Shown: in pieces, positions 111-21,785 of the stretch
Numbering within the stretch: the stretch's first letter is position 1
Layout of the letters: each line of letters begins with the position of its first letter
Source of the DNA: a virus
Reading direction: 5' to 3' (one strand)
Length of the DNA: 22,475 bases
IMG/VR virus record: IMGVR_UViG_3300043331_001812
Span: 1-22,475 of that record
Notes under the pieces: model-generated
The model's database searches: none
What the model saw: only the letters and a program-made list of their open reading frames with translations
What the model was told of the DNA's origin: nothing
Program-made: the position numbers and the translations under genes

Positions 111-468
111 GCTGCCGCAACAACAGCCGCGCGCAAGACGCGAGAGTGCGCCGGCCGACATCAACCGCAAGGTCGCAAGGCAACGCGATACGTGCCGATG
201 GGAAACTCTCGCAACTGTTACAGGCTCAGACCACGACTGGCCAACTCCCAAGCGTCCACTTCGGATGGACCTCCCCGGACAAAGCAGAGAACAGCGGGGA
301 CACGCAAGCGTGAAAGGTGATGCGGCCGACTCAGCCCATTCCGGGTGTAGCATAGGCACCCTCCCTCACAGGGAACAGGGAATGGATCGCGGAGTCGCTA
401 TGCCCCATGCATAGGTGTACTCCGCCTATTGCTCACCCTTACTCGGTGAGCGGAAAGGAGTTCTTCGA
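111..468 (+). ncRNA. Candidate structured RNA or long 5' leader
   Basis: This is the longest gene-free stretch of the window (358 bases) and is full of paired segments. Perfect complements include 140-146 with 206-212 (GCGAGAG/CTCTCGC), 272-277 with 295-300 (TCCCCG/CGGGGA), 327-332 with 392-397 (CGACTC/GAGTCG) and, nested inside that, 336-342 with 379-385 (CCATTCC/GGAATGG). A stem at 254-258/266-270 with an inner C-G pair is capped by a UUCG tetraloop. Bases 398-403 (CTATGC) can pair either with 350-355, which would make a pseudoknot, or with 409-414. No tRNA or standard intron signature was matched. It could be a phage noncoding RNA, an intron relative, or a regulatory leader of the gene at 469. 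The strand is inferred from the direction of the flanking genes. Confidence 0.4.
419..461 (+). promoter_or_regulatory. Hairpin next to ribosome binding site
   Basis: GCTCACC at 431-437 pairs perfectly with GGTGAGC at 445-451 around a seven-base loop. The ribosome binding site AAGGAG (455-460) follows directly, eight bases before the ATG at 469. ACTCC at 419-423 can pair with GGAGT at 457-461 and would bury that site. The layout would suit translational control of the downstream gene, but no regulator is evident and no U-tract marks it as a terminator. Confidence 0.35.
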
Positions 469-1885: not shown

Positions 1886-2109
1886 AAGGTTACATCCTAC
1901 AACTCAACTTCAGGGAGCGCAAAGCGCTGGAGCGCATCGTGAGCACGCTGCTGGGCGGAGACTTCCAGCTGCACGAGGGCAACACCCTGGAGCTGGACGG
2001 CGAGCTGCTGACCATGCTGTTCACGCAGCCGCAAGCCATGCGACACCCGCGTGAGGTGGTGCTGGCGCAGATGCCGCTGCCGCTGCCGCCGGAGGTGTCC
2101 GGTGGTTAA
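1882..2109 (+). CDS. Small acidic unknown protein
   Basis: The product is 75 residues. The ATG at 1882 overlaps the helicase stop (ATGA), and GAGGAG at 1871-1876 is a good ribosome binding site. The sequence is rich in Glu and Leu in the middle (LELDGELLTMLF) and ends in a Pro-Leu stretch, with no metal site or membrane helix. I do not recognise a family. Tight coupling to the helicase suggests co-expression in the replication operon, but nothing shows a direct role. Confidence 0.65.
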   Translation: MKGYILQLNFRERKALERIVSTLLGGDFQLHEGNTLELDGELLTMLFTQPQAMRHPREVVLAQMPLPLPPEVSGG

Positions 2110-2917
2110 CAGACCGGACGTCCTCATCCTGGGGTCAGGACCGGCTGCCGCCTATGCGGTGCTGGCTTGCATGCACGTGGGCGCAACCTACCGTGTGCTG
2201 AGCAACACCCCGCCCAACACCCAGCAGGCGGGTGCGTTCTTCCTGCACTGGCTGCCGCCCAGCTTGGGGGTGGAGCCGGAGGAGGTCTTCATCTACAGCA
2301 CCGGCACCCCGCAAGGCTATCTGCGCAAGCAGTGGGGGAATGGCACGGTGGCTGAGACCTCCTTTCCGCAGGAGTTCCAAACGCAGCAGTGGTACAACTC
2401 CACGCATCTCAAGCGCGTGTGGACCCAGACGCACGTTGAGCCGGTGGACCAGGTTTGGGACGAGCAGCTACTGGCGTGGAGCAGCGAGTACGACTACGTG
2501 CTGCACTCCTTCAGCGCTGACCGGCACGCAGCCGGCCGCACACTGGTGCGCTTCCCCTGCCTGAGCCACCGAGGCACCCTCGAGGATTACGGTCCCAACC
2601 GCATCTGCTACAACGGGGAGCACCAGCAGCGCTGGGTGCGCTCCACCGTGGCCTGGGGCCGACGCAGTTTGGAGTATCCGGTGGGGACGCACGTAGTGAA
2701 CTACGACGGCCTGCACGACGGCCTGCGCGGCACCGGCACCATCAGCATGCTGCGCGACATTCCGCCGGACGTGCAGCCCGTGACCCCGGCCGAATACCTG
2801 GCTCCCAACGTGATGCCCATCGGCCGATATGCCACTTGGCAGCGGCGTGCTCTCAGCCACGACACTTATGCGGCCGTGCTGGGATTGCTGACGGGGGTGC
2901 TGCATGAATCCGCTTGA
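2102..2917 (+). CDS. Rossmann-fold FAD/NAD(P)-binding protein
   Basis: The 271-residue protein opens with a dinucleotide-binding motif, DVLILGSGPAAAYAVLAC (6-23), the beta-alpha-beta fingerprint of FAD- or NAD(P)-dependent oxidoreductases. A conserved-looking C-terminal segment, GRYATWQRRALSHDTY (241-256), resembles ends of flavoprotein-like proteins I associate with phages, although I cannot name the reaction. The GTG start at 2102 is chosen because GGAGGT lies at 2091-2096 and because codons upstream give an Arg-Cys-rich sequence typical of a shadow frame. It overlaps the previous gene by eight bases. Its place among nucleotide-metabolism genes suggests a substrate linked to nucleotides or to flavin supply for ThyX, which is inference. 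Confidence 0.75.
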   Translation: MVNRPDVLILGSGPAAAYAVLACMHVGATYRVLSNTPPNTQQAGAFFLHWLPPSLGVEPEEVFIYSTGTPQGYLRKQWGNGTVAETSFPQEFQTQQWYNSTHLKRVWTQTHVEPVDQVWDEQLLAWSSEYDYVLHSFSADRHAAGRTLVRFPCLSHRGTLEDYGPNRICYNGEHQQRWVRSTVAWGRRSLEYPVGTHVVNYDGLHDGLRGTGTISMLRDIPPDVQPVTPAEYLAPNVMPIGRYATWQRRALSHDTYAAVLGLLTGVLHESA

Positions 2918-3821
2918 GGCGATGGGCATGGACCTGGCGCGGCTGTGGGGTGAGCAGCGCCGTTACAACGACGCCATCAAGGCTGTGCAGACCGAGCGAC
3001 CCAACTGGATGGAGACCTACCTGCTGGGGCTGGTGGGGGAGGTCAACGAGGTGCTGGGCGCACTGCGCTGGAAGTACCACAAGCCCGGTCGCAACCGCAG
3101 CATTGATCGGGATGCGCTGGAGCTGGAGCTGACCGACATGCTCAAGTACGTCGTGTGCTTGTGGCAGGAGACCGGCTTCAGTCTGGCCGACATGCTGGCG
3201 GCTTGGGGTCGAAAGAATCGCCACTTGGAGCACCTGCTGAGCTTGGACTGGTTCCCACCCGAGGGACGCAACATCATCGTCTCGGACCTGGACGGCACGG
3301 TGGCGGACTACCGCCAAGGCTATGCCAGCTGGGCCAAGCTCAAGGACAACGTGCAGACACTGGCAACCGATCTGGACAACGGACTGCCGTGGGACGAGTA
3401 CGAGCGCGCCAAGACTGAGTTCGAGCGCAGCGGTGGATATGGCAGCTTGCGCGCCTATCCGGACGCGGTGCGGCTGCTGGGCAACGAGCAGCTGGCCAAC
3501 ACCTATCTGCTGGTGGTGACGGCTCGACCGGCGGAGGCCATCAGCCGGGTGCGACGCGACACGGACGAGTGGCTGCAGCGGCATGGGCTGCTGGCGGATG
3601 CGCTGCTGTTTGGGCGAGACGAGCGGCTGGTGCAGCTGCTCAAGCTTGCGCCCAATAACAAGCTGCTGTTGCTGGAAGACGACCCTACCCTGGCACTGCG
3701 CGCAGCTGGGGCAGGCTTCAGGGTGTGGCTGCGGGACCAGCCTTACAACCAGGCGATTGAGCACCCCAACCTCCGTCGCTACAGCCAGTTCCCCGAGCGC
3801 GTGGATTGGGAGGCAGCGTGA
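2904..3821 (+). CDS. MazG-like pyrophosphohydrolase fused to HAD phosphatase
   Basis: The 305-residue protein has two domains. Residues about 33-112 look like an all-alpha MazG-like NTP pyrophosphohydrolase, with acidic metal-binding pairs GEVNEV (45-50) and ELTDML (75-80). Residues about 121-290 look like a HAD-superfamily phosphatase: motif I DLDGT (128-132) preceded by a hydrophobic strand, motif II TARP (206-209), and the acidic motif LLEDDP (256-261). Such domains split dNTP to dNMP plus pyrophosphate and remove phosphates from monophosphates, so the fusion could take a nucleotide from triphosphate to nucleoside. The substrate is unknown. The ATG at 2904 overlaps the previous gene by 14 bases. 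An ATG at 2922 after a GAGG is a possible alternative start. Confidence 0.85.
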   Translation: MNPLEAMGMDLARLWGEQRRYNDAIKAVQTERPNWMETYLLGLVGEVNEVLGALRWKYHKPGRNRSIDRDALELELTDMLKYVVCLWQETGFSLADMLAAWGRKNRHLEHLLSLDWFPPEGRNIIVSDLDGTVADYRQGYASWAKLKDNVQTLATDLDNGLPWDEYERAKTEFERSGGYGSLRAYPDAVRLLGNEQLANTYLLVVTARPAEAISRVRRDTDEWLQRHGLLADALLFGRDERLVQLLKLAPNNKLLLLEDDPTLALRAAGAGFRVWLRDQPYNQAIEHPNLRRYSQFPERVDWEAA

Positions 3822-4249
3822 CCCCAAATGATTCTAGGTCCATCCGAATGGCGCCTGAGCTAGTGCGCCAAATCCGCGAGGGTGCGGACCAGTTGCCCAG
3901 TGTTGACCCACAGCCCAGCAGTGCGCTGGAGCAGCGCATGCAGCACCGCCTGGTGCAGTGGGAGCAGATCGTGGGGGAGGCGCGCCAGCTGTTCGAGGAG
4001 CGCAACCGTACCTATGCGGATGCGGTGGCGGTCAATGGGCTGTTGGGGGTGATGTTCGAGAGCAGCGCCATCCTGGCGCGCATCCGTGGGCTGCGGCCGC
4101 TGCTGCTGCGGGAGATGTACGACCACACGCGGGTGGGTCTGCCGGAGGAGGTGCTGCAGAAGAAGATCCGCAACGTGTATCAGGACCTGCTGGTGTACAG
4201 CTTCCTGGCGCTGGCCATGATGGACGACGAGAACTGGGTGGGGGAATAG
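3818..4249 (+). CDS. Possible nucleotide-modification-associated (Nmad1-like) protein
   Basis: The product is 143 residues from a GTG at 3818 that overlaps the previous TGA, with GGAGG at 3809-3813. It is all-helical in appearance. The pattern RNRTYADA (62-69), followed by a loop and then YQDLLVYSFLALAMM (121-135), resembles the DUF1599/Nmad1 family of phage proteins often found near nucleotide-modifying genes. The match is by eye and incomplete. Family members have no proven biochemical role that I can state. It sits between the MazG-HAD fusion and ThyX, which fits a nucleotide function. It could also be another divergent all-alpha pyrophosphatase. Confidence 0.6.
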   Translation: MTPNDSRSIRMAPELVRQIREGADQLPSVDPQPSSALEQRMQHRLVQWEQIVGEARQLFEERNRTYADAVAVNGLLGVMFESSAILARIRGLRPLLLREMYDHTRVGLPEEVLQKKIRNVYQDLLVYSFLALAMMDDENWVGE

Positions 4250-4279
4250 TCCGGCCGCGATGCCGGGGGAGAGAACAAC

Positions 4280-5437
4280 ATGCCTAACTTCAAGGTCGAG
4301 TTTGTGGAGCCGGGTGTGGCGCGCGCCACACTGCTGAACCTGCCCGCGCTGCAGGGTGCGGCCGACTTGCTGGCCACCATCACGCGTGGCTACAAGCAGG
4401 TGTACTCGCCGCATCCGCCTACGGGTGAGGAGCGCGCTGAGCTGCTGGAAGACATCCGCCGCACCAAGCTGCGCTCCCCGTTGGAGTTCATCAACACCAT
4501 CTGGTTGATCACGGGGGTGACGCGTGCCTTCACGCACCAGCTGGTGCGGTATCGGATTGGCACCCAGTTTGTGCAGGAGAGCATGCGCTTCGCCGACAAG
4601 CGTGAGGCGCAAGTGCTGCTCACCCCGGAGCTCACGGGCAGCGCGCGTGGCGAGTTCATGGAGACAGCCCAGGAAGCGTTCGCAGCCTACTCCCGCATGC
4701 TGGACGCCAAGGTGCCCATCCAGGCTGCGCGCGGCATCCTGCCACACCACACCCTGACCAGTGTGTTCTTCGGTTGCTCGCTGGCCACCCTGGCGCACAT
4801 CTACGAGCAGCGCATGTGCTGCCAGGCCCAGCACCACGAGTGGCCTGGGGTGGTACAGCAGATGAAGGCTGCGCTGCCGCTGGAGCTGCAAGCCTTCATC
4901 CCGGCACCCTGGGAGAGCGGCAAGCCGGACTGCGGCTTTGGCGCGACCTTTGACCGGCCGTGCGCGCTGCGACACCTGTGGCCCAAGCCGACCGACAAGT
5001 TTCAGATTGGGGTGGAGACCACGCGCGGCACTCCCAGCGAGGCCTGGGTGCAGACACGCGTCAAGACCGGCCAGACCGGACCCCTGAGCGAGGTCAAGCT
5101 GCCACCTGATCTGCTGTACCAGAAGGGGGAGATGTTTGTGCACGTGCACGACAGCAAGCTGGTGGCGCGCATGCGCGGCAACCGCCACTTCCTGATCTAC
5201 CCGACGCGGTCCATCTCGCTGTTCAGCCCGCTGCTGCAGAAGGCCGCTGAGCGCGGGGTGACCGAGCTGCACATCACGGACTTGGACACGCATCGCACCT
5301 ACATGTGCACCCTGGCGGACTTCCTGGACAAGAGCGTGCTGCAGCCGGCCGACCAGGTGTATCCGGAGCGTCGCTACCTGCCACTGGGGCAGTGGACCTG
5401 GGTGGAGAATGGGGAGACGGTGCATGTCCCAGCATAG
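4280..5437 (+). CDS. thyX: Flavin-dependent thymidylate synthase ThyX, extended
   Basis: ThyX converts dUMP to dTMP using methylenetetrahydrofolate, FAD and NADPH. The signature region reads QLVRYRIGTQFVQESMRF (87-104), against the usual RHR-x7-S pattern, with Tyr in place of the central His. The second conserved stretch, ARGILPHHTLTSVFF (150-164), and the AQ-containing helix near 180-187 also match ThyX. The protein is 385 residues, whereas ThyX is usually about 220-250. The last roughly 135 residues form an additional region I cannot assign. GGGGGAGA at 4265-4272 supports the ATG at 4280. It would supply dTMP for the polymerase encoded downstream. Confidence 0.88.
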   Translation: MPNFKVEFVEPGVARATLLNLPALQGAADLLATITRGYKQVYSPHPPTGEERAELLEDIRRTKLRSPLEFINTIWLITGVTRAFTHQLVRYRIGTQFVQESMRFADKREAQVLLTPELTGSARGEFMETAQEAFAAYSRMLDAKVPIQAARGILPHHTLTSVFFGCSLATLAHIYEQRMCCQAQHHEWPGVVQQMKAALPLELQAFIPAPWESGKPDCGFGATFDRPCALRHLWPKPTDKFQIGVETTRGTPSEAWVQTRVKTGQTGPLSEVKLPPDLLYQKGEMFVHVHDSKLVARMRGNRHFLIYPTRSISLFSPLLQKAAERGVTELHITDLDTHRTYMCTLADFLDKSVLQPADQVYPERRYLPLGQWTWVENGETVHVPA

Positions 5438-5693
5438 TTGGTTCTGCAACGGCTGCAACGACGTGTTCTGGAGCGACGACGGTCAGCCGCAGTGCCCCAG
5501 CTGTGGCTCCTTGGAGGTTGAGCGCATGCACCCCGACAGCGCCTACGCAGCACCCACCAACCTCAAGGGCGATGAGGACGAGTACTCCTCGCCCGAGTAC
5601 TGGCAGGACGTGCCGCCTCCCAGGGGACTGCTGGGCATCTGCGCCAAGCTGGGCGGCATGCTCATCGGCTTCATCTGGGGACCGGAGCAGTAG
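5424..5693 (+). CDS. Small zinc-ribbon protein
   Basis: The product is 89 residues. The ATG at 5424 follows GGGGAGA (5411-5417) and overlaps the end of thyX by 14 bases. CNGC (9-12) and CPSCGS (24-29) form a four-Cys zinc ribbon near the N-terminus. A hydrophobic C-terminal stretch, LLGICAKLGGMLIGFIWG, could be a membrane anchor or an amphipathic helix. Zinc ribbons bind nucleic acid or protein, and no more exact role can be read. It is one of eight small proteins of this kind in the window. Confidence 0.75.
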   Translation: MSQHSWFCNGCNDVFWSDDGQPQCPSCGSLEVERMHPDSAYAAPTNLKGDEDEYSSPEYWQDVPPPRGLLGICAKLGGMLIGFIWGPEQ

Positions 5694-5694
5694 C

Positions 5695-6054
5695 ATGTAC
5701 GCTGTCGAAGGTCTCAACAAGCTGGCCAAGCAAGTGCACCTGTGGGCCGTCGGCAAGGGGTGGTGGCCACTGCCGCTGGAGGGTGGACCACAGCCCAAGA
5801 CGTTCCTGGAGCAGTGCGCGCTGTTCCACACCGAGATCTCGGAGGCGGTGGAAGCGTGGCGCAATGGCCACGAGCCCAAGGAGCTGTACTACCTGGAGGA
5901 CAAGCCGGAGGGCATCCCGGCTGAGCTGGCGGACCTACTCCTTCGGGTGCTGGACACCTGTGGCAAGTACGACATCGACATCGAGCAGGCCATCCGGGAG
6001 AAGATGCTGTACAACGTGTCGCGACCGCAGCGGCATGGAGGGAAGCGCGCATGA
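5695..6054 (+). CDS. MazG-like NTP pyrophosphohydrolase
   Basis: The 119-residue protein matches small all-alpha MazG-like enzymes that hydrolyse (d)NTPs to monophosphates. Acidic motifs are TEISEAVEA (46-54) and PAELADLL (75-82). The C-terminal signature, EKMLYNVSRPQRHGGK (102-117), is typical of this group. The ATG at 5695 starts two bases after the previous stop with GGAG at 5684-5687. It is distinct from the MazG domain of the fusion at 2904, so the phage carries two such activities, probably with different substrates. Likely job: controlling or cleaning the dNTP pool during replication. Confidence 0.85.
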   Translation: MYAVEGLNKLAKQVHLWAVGKGWWPLPLEGGPQPKTFLEQCALFHTEISEAVEAWRNGHEPKELYYLEDKPEGIPAELADLLLRVLDTCGKYDIDIEQAIREKMLYNVSRPQRHGGKRA

Positions 6055-6293
6055 GCATCACGGAAGCAGACCTGGACCGTCGTCTGAACGTCAACGGGTG
6101 GGGCTGGATGCTAATCTCAACCCTGACACCGGGTGTGGTTCGCATTCAGCTGGCCAATGCGGGCGAGGAGGACTGGGGCTGGCGCGCGTGCGTGGAGGCA
6201 CCTACCTTGGAGGAGGCGGTAGCACAAGCGGAGGCGCTGGTGAACTCCACGAGTGCCTCCGAGTATATGGCGCAGATGGGTGGACAGCCGTGA
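6051..6293 (+). CDS. Small unknown protein
   Basis: The product is 80 residues. The ATG at 6051 overlaps the preceding stop (ATGA), with GGAGGG upstream near 6038. It looks like a compact alpha/beta fold: a Trp-rich strand (NGWGWMLIS), a further strand pair, then an Ala-Glu-rich helix (TLEEAVAQAEALV). It has no metal site and no family I recognise. The helix pattern resembles small phage proteins with a beta-alpha unit of unknown role. Its position in a tightly packed operon supports expression. Confidence 0.65.
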   Translation: MSITEADLDRRLNVNGWGWMLISTLTPGVVRIQLANAGEEDWGWRACVEAPTLEEAVAQAEALVNSTSASEYMAQMGGQP

Positions 6294-6571
6294 GCGCCAG
6301 CATGGATTGGCGCGCGCTGCTGCGGCATGGTGCCAGCTGGATCGGGCTGATCAAGCCGCTGTGCGTGGAGTGCGGTGTGCGGCCGGCACTGCAAGGCAAG
6401 GGCAGCCGCTGCGACAGCTGCGCCACGGCCGCGCTGCTGGCAGCCATGGCAGAGCCGGATACCTGCCCGGAGTGCGGTGCGCAGGCGGTCATCCCGCTGG
6501 ATAGGCCGTTCACCTGCCCGCAATGCGGCTGGGACGAGGGAGCGCAAGATGGCGAAGCGCAAGAGCAGTAA
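6290..6571 (+). CDS. Protein with two zinc ribbons
   Basis: The product is 93 residues from a GTG at 6290 overlapping the previous TGA. An ATG at 6302 is an alternative start. Two zinc sites can be read: CVECGV with CDSC in the first half, and CPECGA with CPQCGW in the second. An Ala-rich helix (TAALLAAMAE) links them. The end overlaps the polymerase start by 23 bases. Double zinc ribbons of this size are usually nucleic-acid or protein-binding adaptors. Coupling to the polymerase gene hints at replication or transcription, without proof. Confidence 0.7.
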   Translation: MSASMDWRALLRHGASWIGLIKPLCVECGVRPALQGKGSRCDSCATAALLAAMAEPDTCPECGAQAVIPLDRPFTCPQCGWDEGAQDGEAQEQ

Positions 6572-8513
6572 GGCCATGGGGGTGGCGGACCGTGCCGTCA
6601 TCCCCCTGAGCCTGCCGTTCATGGAGGACCAGGCACTGTATGGTGCGCCGCGCGACGTGCTGCGCTGCGCCGGCAAGACGGTGGTGCTGGACACGGAGAC
6701 CACCGGGCTGGACTGGTGGCGGGATCAGATGGTGGGGCTGGCGGTGTGGTGCCCGGAGGCGCAGGTCAAGGTGTTCATCCCGACTTTGACCGCCTCCGAG
6801 CGCGTGGAGGTCAAGGAGGCGGTCCGAGTGACCGCCTCCAACCCCGACACCCGCATCCTGGCCCACAATCTGAAGTTTGACGCGCACTTCTTGGAGCTCA
6901 GGCTCTGGGAGGTCAACTGCAAGCTGCTGGACACGGCCGTGATGCTACACTTGCAGGACTCGCGACAGCGCAAGAGCCTGGCAGCGGCGGAGCAGCGCTG
7001 GCTGGGCACCCGCACCAAGGAGCACTATCGCGGGGACCAGGCCGAGGTACACCGCATGCCACTGGGCGCAATGGCGGAGTATGCCATCAACGACTGCCGC
7101 ATCACAGCCCTGCTGGCGCAACGGCTTGCGCCGGAGCTGGCGCAGCTCAAGCTCACCACCCTGCTGCGGATGCAGATGCAGTATGTGCGGCTGCTGCAGC
7201 GCATCGAGGCACGCGGCATGCTGCTGGACGAGACGTTTGTGGTACGCGCGCTGGCGCGTTTCCAGCGCAACCTGGTGGCCATGGAGCAGGAGCTGTTTGC
7301 TGCCATCCCTGGCAAGCGGGTGTTCAACTGGCGCAGCGACGAGCAGCTCAGTCACGCCGTGTACGACTGGTATGGCTGGGAGCGACCCAAGAACCCCTAC
7401 GCGGACGCGGATGGGGTGGACCGCAGTCGGTTTGCGGATCGCGGCAAGTACAACTCCACCAGCACCAGTGCCTTCCTGCTCATGGAGAAAGCAGAGCACC
7501 CGCTGGGTGGGCTGATCATGGCCATGCGTGAGACCGACAAACTGGCCACCACGCTGCAGTCCTGGCACGACCTGGCAGACCACTCCAGTGGGCAGGCGGT
7601 GCTGCATACCTCCTTCAACGAGAACGGCACCCGCACCGGCCGGCTGAGCAGCAGTCGCCCCAACTGGCAGAACATGCCGAGCGACGTGCGCACGCGCGAG
7701 ACGCAGTCGGTGTACTCCGGCGGCACCACGCGCGAGGCAGAGTACAACCTGCGGCTGGCTATCCGTGCTCGACCGGGAAACGTGCTGCTGAGTGTGGACC
7801 ACAAGCAGCAGGAGATGAAACTGTTCGCAGTGATCGCCAAAATCCCGCAGATGCTGGAGGCCATCAAGCAGCGTCTGGACATCCACGCGGAGATCGCCAA
7901 GAGCGTGTGGCCGGAGGACATCGCACGCGACCCCAGCTGCCTCAAGGTGCGCCGGGAGTGGTCCAAGACCATCGGCTTTGGACTGCTGTACGGTGGCACC
8001 ACCGGCTCCCTGGAGCACCGTCTCAACAAGAGCCGCGACGAGGCAGCCGCCATCGCGGCTGCCTACTGGGAGCGCTTCCCACGCATCCTGCCGTTTCTGC
8101 ACGAGACGGTGGAGGAGTGCAAGCAGCACAAGCTGGTGCGCTACTGGTCCGGGCGCATCTGGCGCGAGGAGGACGAGCAGCACATGTACAAGGGCACCAA
8201 CGCCAAGGTGCAAGGTGGCGCGGCGGACCTGATGGCCATCGCGGCCATGCGCTGCCAGGCGCACTTGGACGGATACGGCAGCGGTGCGGGAATCGCCAGC
8301 ATCATCCACGATGAGCTGTTGTTCGAGCTGCCGGCCGAACAGCTGACAGACGCGGTGGTGGCGGACTTGCAGCGCACCATGGAGGTGGAGGATCTGTTCG
8401 GGGTGCCGTTCGGCACGGACGTCAAGGCTGGACCCAGCTATGGGTCCATGGGCGACTTGGTCGAGTTTCGCGCGCAGCTGCAAGGAGGGACACATGCGCT
8501 GGCTGAGCATTGA
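6549..8513 (+). CDS. polA: Family A DNA polymerase with 3'-5' exonuclease
   Basis: The 654-residue replicative polymerase has exonuclease motifs VVLDTETTGL (45-54), HNLKFD (106-111) and YAINDCR (178-184), giving the DEDD-type proofreading site. Polymerase motif A is VDHKQQEMK (416-424), motif B is the O-helix from R469 through KTIGFGLLYG (473-482), and motif C is IIHDELLF (585-592). Motif A normally reads close to DYSQIELR. Here the Asp and Glu are kept, but Ser is Lys and Ile is Gln. The O-helix has Phe (477), as in Pol I. There is no 5'-3' exonuclease domain, which is normal for phage enzymes. The ATG at 6549 follows GAGGGAG near 6536. Confidence 0.93.
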   Translation: MAKRKSSKAMGVADRAVIPLSLPFMEDQALYGAPRDVLRCAGKTVVLDTETTGLDWWRDQMVGLAVWCPEAQVKVFIPTLTASERVEVKEAVRVTASNPDTRILAHNLKFDAHFLELRLWEVNCKLLDTAVMLHLQDSRQRKSLAAAEQRWLGTRTKEHYRGDQAEVHRMPLGAMAEYAINDCRITALLAQRLAPELAQLKLTTLLRMQMQYVRLLQRIEARGMLLDETFVVRALARFQRNLVAMEQELFAAIPGKRVFNWRSDEQLSHAVYDWYGWERPKNPYADADGVDRSRFADRGKYNSTSTSAFLLMEKAEHPLGGLIMAMRETDKLATTLQSWHDLADHSSGQAVLHTSFNENGTRTGRLSSSRPNWQNMPSDVRTRETQSVYSGGTTREAEYNLRLAIRARPGNVLLSVDHKQQEMKLFAVIAKIPQMLEAIKQRLDIHAEIAKSVWPEDIARDPSCLKVRREWSKTIGFGLLYGGTTGSLEHRLNKSRDEAAAIAAAYWERFPRILPFLHETVEECKQHKLVRYWSGRIWREEDEQHMYKGTNAKVQGGAADLMAIAAMRCQAHLDGYGSGAGIASIIHDELLFELPAEQLTDAVVADLQRTMEVEDLFGVPFGTDVKAGPSYGSMGDLVEFRAQLQGGTHALAEH

Positions 8514-10280: not shown

Positions 10281-10289
10281 GCGGACATC

Positions 10290-10307
10290 ACTAGGATTGG
10301 CTTTACG
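10290..10307 (+). promoter_or_regulatory. Shared intergenic motif, copy 1
   Basis: The sequence ACTAGGATTGGCTTTACG recurs at 21625-21643 with one substitution and one inserted base. Both copies start at or just after the stop codon of the last gene of an operon. The shorter core CTTTACG also occurs at 10460-10466 and at 10552-10558. It may be a phage regulatory or promoter element. Confidence 0.45.
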
Positions 10308-10345
10308 GTCTGGAAGGTCGTTTCGCCTGTCTCCCCTACCCTACT

Positions 10346-10365
10346 GGGCTCCTAGAGGCTCCTAG
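10346..10365. repeat. Tandem ten-base repeat with CTAG
   Basis: GGGCTCCTAG is followed directly by AGGCTCCTAG, nine of ten bases alike. The CTAG core recurs at 10291-10294 and 10488-10491, giving four copies in about 200 bases, while it is sparse in the rest of the window. This could be an operator with repeated half-sites. Confidence 0.4.
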
Positions 10366-10421
10366 TGTGTTTTCCGTCGGGTAAGCATAAAGCCCAAAAA
10401 GCACCGAATAGGTCTGGGAAA

Positions 10422-10456
10422 CGCGGGTGGTCGGCCGGATAAGCTGCCCACCCGCG
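10422..10456 (+). terminator. Strong hairpin, possible terminator
   Basis: CGCGGGTGG at 10422-10430 pairs perfectly with CCACCCGCG at 10448-10456 around a 17-base loop. The bases after the stem (CTCCTTTACG) include only three consecutive T, so it is a weak intrinsic terminator at best. Its place just ahead of a promoter candidate suits insulation of the upstream operon. Confidence 0.4.
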
Positions 10457-10460
10457 CTCC

Positions 10461-10489
10461 TTTACGAGAGCTACTGACTACAGTACACT
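10461..10489 (+). promoter_or_regulatory. Sigma70-like promoter candidate
   Basis: TTTACG (10461-10466) and TACACT (10484-10489) are separated by exactly 17 bases. Each hexamer matches the sigma70 consensus at four of six positions. The first gene of the next operon starts 51 bases downstream at 10540. The -35 box overlaps a CTTTACG motif copy. Confidence 0.45.
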
Positions 10490-10539
10490 AGGGGACCAAT
10501 CCCACACCATCCTACCCGAGCGAGAGGCAGAAGGAGCCA

Positions 10540-10710
10540 ATGACCGGCCATCTTTACGTACCACGTCAGCACCCCAAGCCCAAGGAACTGCTCCCCATGG
10601 GCGCATTGGCGCGTCAGGACCCCGCCTGGTGGCAGCGCGCCATGCTCCGGGTGCACTGGGCTGCAGCCCACGCGCGCATGCGGCGCAGGAGCGCACCCCA
10701 CCGTGCCTGA
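10540..10710 (+). CDS. Small basic unknown protein
   Basis: The product is 56 residues: it starts MTGHLYVPRQHPKPKELL and ends in a basic stretch rich in Arg and His. AAGGAG at 10531-10536 lies just before the ATG, a slightly short spacing. It is the first gene after the promoter candidate at 10461 and overlaps the next gene by eight bases. The composition suggests nucleic-acid binding, but there is no motif. Confidence 0.55.
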   Translation: MTGHLYVPRQHPKPKELLPMGALARQDPAWWQRAMLRVHWAAAHARMRRRSAPHRA

Positions 10711-21636: not shown

Positions 21637-21643
21637 CTTTACG
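21625..21643 (+). promoter_or_regulatory. Shared intergenic motif, copy 2
   Basis: ACTAGCGATTGACTTTACG overlaps the stop codon of the preceding gene and repeats the motif at 10290-10307. It includes TTGACT, and TAGAAT follows at 21651-21656, but only 12 bases separate them, too few for a standard sigma70 promoter. It may be a start site for the leader downstream, by a different rule. Confidence 0.45.
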
Positions 21644-21785
21644 AGTAGGGTAGAATAGGAGCACCGCAGGCTCTTCCTGCCCACCAACTTAGCAGTCGAG
21701 CGCCTCCGAGCGCCGTTTCTCGTCCTACTTTGAGCGCCATCGAGTGCCCCAACTCGATGGCGCTTTTTTGTTGCTCGGAGGCCGC
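21637..21785 (+). other. Leader region ahead of prohead protease
   Basis: This gene-free stretch begins within motif copy 2. It has a hairpin GCAGG/CCTGC (21666-21670 with 21676-21680), three copies of GAGCGCC (21698-21704, 21708-21714 and 21732-21738) and a strong terminator at 21733-21769. A CGGAGG ribosome binding site for the protease follows at 21776-21781. The order suggests either an attenuated leader or a short separate transcript. Confidence 0.5.
21733..21769 (+). terminator. Intrinsic terminator
   Basis: A perfect 13-base stem, AGCGCCATCGAGT (21733-21745) with ACTCGATGGCGCT (21752-21764), closes a six-base loop and is followed by a run of six T (21764-21769). This is the clearest terminator in the window. 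It would stop transcripts from the virion operon before the protease gene, unless read through. Confidence 0.9.

Follow-up and report, generated by a model that had tools for sequence, protein, structure and literature searches.

A candidate orphan RNA structure ahead of the replication genes of a metagenomic phage

GOLLD and ROOL are structured non-coding RNAs of phages and prophages, of unknown function, whose folds include pseudoknots and kissing loops; many GOLLD RNAs exceed 800 nt, and both families are often found near tRNA islands (Nature 2025, PMC12286853). The gene-free stretch described here, 358 bases at positions 111-468 of a lone metagenomic phage (the window analysed was the whole virus record, 22,475 bases), resembles them in being a structured non-coding RNA in a phage, although here only as a candidate, and differs from them in that its folded part measures 286 nt, has no tRNA, adjoins replication genes and gives no Rfam match even at an E value of 10. 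In fact, none of the 4227 models of Rfam 15 matched at the gathering threshold anywhere in the window, and when matches with E up to 10 were accepted on both strands of 1-700 only a 21-nt, 10-bit chance match was obtained. The GOLLD and ROOL models found no match in sequence or structure, and ARAGORN detected no tRNA- or tmRNA-like domain in the window. The stretch also recalls the structured leaders at the 5' ends of operons in phages and bacteria, being a folded region just upstream of a ribosome-binding site, on the same strand and without a terminator of its own, but no leader family model matches it. In the case of group I and group II introns, the likeness lies in the multi-branched fold and in a size near that of small ORF-less group I introns; we rejected them because no catalytic-core model matched at E up to 10 (a very divergent core might escape) and because there is no evident split gene, as the upstream ORF stops at 110 and the downstream gene has its own Shine-Dalgarno sequence (452-460) and ATG (469), with no sign of exons that would join in frame. 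We thus treat the stretch as an unclassified orphan RNA candidate.

All clear genes of the record, whose G+C content is 65%, lie on the + strand, in the order truncated gene, gap 111-468, 141-aa gene, DnaB, MazG-domain protein, ThyX, DNA polymerase A, terminase and portal. The first of these is cut off by the left end of the record and runs in the same direction as the 141-aa gene (469-894), which in turn overlaps the gene for a DnaB-type helicase (884-1885; Pfam DnaB_C, E 1e-24). A strong Shine-Dalgarno sequence, GGAAAGGAG, can be read 8 nt upstream of ATG 469. No family match was found for the 141-aa protein; its likeness to a phage protein encoded near the replisome organizer in MW202725 is weak (E 0.9), and the fold predicted from its single sequence was unusable (pLDDT 47).

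With a codon model derived from the phage's own genes, no coding signal appeared in any of the six frames of 61-540, and the upstream fragment 3-107 scored as coding under the same model. Every frame of 111-468 scores below the genes, which removes a coding or decayed-gene reading. A previous sequence-only reading of this DNA had called it the largest gene-free stretch, and this was borne out, since it is the biggest gap of the record with no coding frame; the rival gap at 10281-10702 holds a short ORF at 10540, with AGAAGGAG ahead of it. The windows with the highest A content of the record (0.27, against a mean of 0.19 and an SD of 0.025) fall over it, and no repeat copies of the stretch occur elsewhere in the 22,475 bases.

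The other two gaps between genes, at 10281-10539 and 21637-21785, have features of their own. Both contain the word TTTACG, at 10302, 10461 and 21638; two of these copies are CTTTACGAG-like, and the one at 10461, with TACACT 17 bases downstream, may be a candidate phage promoter. Positions 10423-10457 hold a strong hairpin, CGCGGGTGG...CCACCCGCG. The gap at 21637-21785 has a very stable structure (z -4.6), dominated by an apparent intrinsic terminator at 21732-21765, a 14-pair stem with a T run that is nested within a second pairing of the flanks.

On the + strand, positions 140-425 are predicted to fold as a closed RNA domain of 286 nt in which four helical elements, P1 to P4, join with almost no unpaired bases into a four-way junction. 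The closing helix P1 pairs GCG-a-GAGUGCGCC (140-152) with GGUGUACUC-CGC (414-425) through 12 pairs, two of which are G-U, and has a single bulge; the pair probabilities are 0.75-1.0. P2 also has 12 pairs, formed between GGCCG-a-CAUCA-a-CC (153-166, with two single-A bulges) and GGUGAUGCGGCC (316-327). Its inner region (167-315) is mostly poorly determined, with pair probabilities of 0.2-0.65 for most of it, except for the well-supported hairpins 273-277/295-299 and 301-304/309-312 (0.88-1.0) and the pairings 227-229/237-239 and 223-225/240-242 (near 0.96-0.99). The P3 arm (328-396) consists of GACUC/GAGUC, CCAUUCC/GGAAUGG and the terminal hairpins 343-361 and 362-374, at probabilities of 0.78-1.0, and the subregion 327-403 folded alone reaches a z of -3.5. 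P4 is a predicted hairpin, UAUGC/GCAUA, at 399-403/409-413 (398-414 with the outer C-G pair). A separate 9-pair hairpin at 429-453 follows the domain and abuts the ribosome-binding site; there is no T tract behind it and it was not called as a terminator.

The sequence-only reading had listed at least five perfect stems, which are indeed present, and what it had not noticed is that they link up as one closed domain. Its nested helix pair stands in the inner part, with probabilities of 0.99-1.0 for 336-342/379-385 and 0.78-1.0 for 328-332/392-396, whereas the outer pair C327-G397 exists and competes with C327-G153. Similarly, the UUCG-capped hairpin that it described can be formed at 254-270 (GUCCAC-UUCG-GAUGGAC, with one A bulge), but it is one of two alternatives inside P2 and the minimum-energy fold prefers the other, which overlaps it. 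The two mutually exclusive pairings proposed for 398-403 are real complements, as CUAUGC is complementary to GCAUAG, which occurs at 409-414 and again at 350-355; the first gives the favoured hairpin and the second a pseudoknot with the loop of 343-361. To leave the two strands of the pseudoknot unpaired costs 4.4 kcal/mol, and the 6-bp duplex would return about -5.9 when the loop cost of a pseudoknot is not yet counted, so that the two forms are close in energy. On paper, then, the switch idea stands on a single 6-nt complement whose two pairings are modelled to be near balance.

The folding of 140-425 on the + strand is better than that of shuffled sequences at a level that is suggestive, not established. 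Taken as a whole, the 358 nt depart only slightly from shuffles (z -1.6 to -2.0), and the domain itself reaches a z of -3.2 on the + strand, with none of 200 shuffles equally stable, against -1.0 for the reverse complement. When the selection of the ends was corrected for by searching the best ends over 16 windows, 7 of 240 shuffles were equally stable (about 3%); 3/240 had a closing helix with 12 or more pairs, and 5/240 an equally low pairing entropy. The enrichment of unpaired A in the fold does not exceed that of shuffles, 33 of 200 of which reach the same level. Furthermore, several other 280-nt windows of the record have a z below -3, one of them owing to an apparent intrinsic terminator. 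The proposal that this is an undescribed phage RNA is partly supported: it agrees with the missing coding signal, the difference between the strands, the closure of the domain and the searches for Rfam families, tRNA and tmRNA, which matched nothing.

The best explanation, which we consider quite possible though short of probable, is that the stretch is a structured + strand RNA acting in cis as a leader of the replication genes and co-transcribed with its neighbouring genes. Neither a sigma-70-type promoter nor a + strand terminator was found within 1-900 (other promoter types are invisible to this search), in agreement with the earlier statement that standard terminator signals are absent, although the same phage has a strong, textbook intrinsic terminator at 21732-21765; read-through from the co-directional upstream gene is therefore the simplest reading of how a transcript would enter 140-425. 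The four-way-junction domain could then act as an insulator between the ribosome-binding site and the message that precedes it. The hairpin at 429-453 would leave the Shine-Dalgarno sequence accessible and, if the mRNA is processed, may serve to mark or protect its 5' end. Judging from position and fold, such a leader would act on the replication operon (the 141-aa protein, DnaB and the following genes) either by the way in which it presents the ribosome-binding site or by way of mRNA processing; transcription, read-through, in vivo folding and any regulatory effect are all steps that we infer. Counted in favour of this leader are the missing coding signal, the high A content, the fold on the + strand only, the low entropy and the strong Shine-Dalgarno sequence directly after the structure, and counted against it are the selection-corrected significance, the lack of a homologue, the unpaired A at shuffle level and a length of about 286 nt, which is long for a simple leader.

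That same excess of length is one reason to consider a phage non-coding RNA of about 290-320 nt that stands alone and acts in trans, either excised from the replication mRNA or transcribed apart from it, like other large phage RNAs of unknown function. A single closed domain with paired 5' and 3' ends is found in many stand-alone RNAs, and the complement between loop and arm could give a pseudoknot or a kissing contact. We nevertheless regard it as rather unlikely, as the search of 1-900 gave it neither promoter nor terminator of its own, it is below the size of many GOLLD RNAs and away from tRNAs, and no copy was found in any other phage searched. At the DNA level, searches of phages and plasmids in which matches up to E 10 were accepted returned short chance pieces only, and a 16-base probe had 19 matches in IMG/VR, none of which extends meaningfully or is recognised by the covariance model.

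Single-query protein searches with the 141-aa protein, DnaB, PolA and ThyX gave no close relative. Alignment-based ThyX and PolA searches did reveal a family, with more than 20 phage contigs in IMG/VR that share the gene order p2102, MazG fusion, p3806, ThyX and PolA at about 25-49% identity; in the one contig whose genes were examined by family, a helicase, an exonuclease, a Sak4-like annealing protein and a possible SSB lie to the left of the module. The RNA model, DnaB and the 141-aa gene were detected in 0 of 32 whole records, nhmmer, blastn and a single-sequence covariance model gave no trace of the RNA, and cmsearch of fetched flanks was empty. The whole-record search combined a single-sequence model with a fast first pass, which finds only fairly similar RNAs, so that these negatives are weak. 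The DnaB alignment scan gave relatives at 24-33% identity among the matches listed, none of those with the RNA, and a PolA scan of bacterial genomes listed only distant polymerases (24-28%) that resemble bacterial Pol I. Judged by these comparisons, the RNA belongs with the 141-aa gene and this DnaB to what appears to be a local module, one for which no close relative is known.

Within the neighbouring module (2102-8513) of our phage, p2102 has an FAD-binding-like N-terminus and MazG is fused to a HAD-like domain (DLDGTVAD). The usual ThyX signature is RHRxxSxNExS; the ThyX-like protein at 4280-5437 scores 66, below the NCBIfam thyX cut-off of 88, and has RYR and QES at the signature position; it could be a variant form of the enzyme, serving for instance to make a modified base.

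It is unlikely that the stretch is a spacer, inert or in decay, that seems structured only as a chance effect of high G+C. The modest z of the whole stretch, the shuffles that equal the fold once the ends are selected, the ordinary windows of the record with z below -3 and the fact that no conservation was seen all speak for it, but the strand asymmetry, the entropy, the long closing helix and the A content agree in direction, and it is rare for phages to carry 358 bases without a use among densely arranged genes. Quite unlikely, too, is an element working at the DNA level, such as a replication origin or an initiator-binding site, with the RNA folds as by-products; the biggest gap in the record, directly upstream of the 141-aa gene and DnaB, would be a suitable place for it, but a cruciform would not fold so differently on the two strands, P1 uses G-U pairs, and no AT-rich unwinding region was seen in a stretch with 61% G+C. 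Finally, a new class of medium-sized phage RNA, in which the four-way junction and a pseudoknot/hairpin switch (398-403 with 350-355 or 409-414) would control or prime the replication module, is very unlikely.

The present value of the cis-acting leader and of the fold that underlies it is that of a defined hypothesis with exact pairings rather than a discovery, for an orphan in one unplaced contig. If real, it would be one more undescribed structured phage RNA, sited just ahead of the replication genes.
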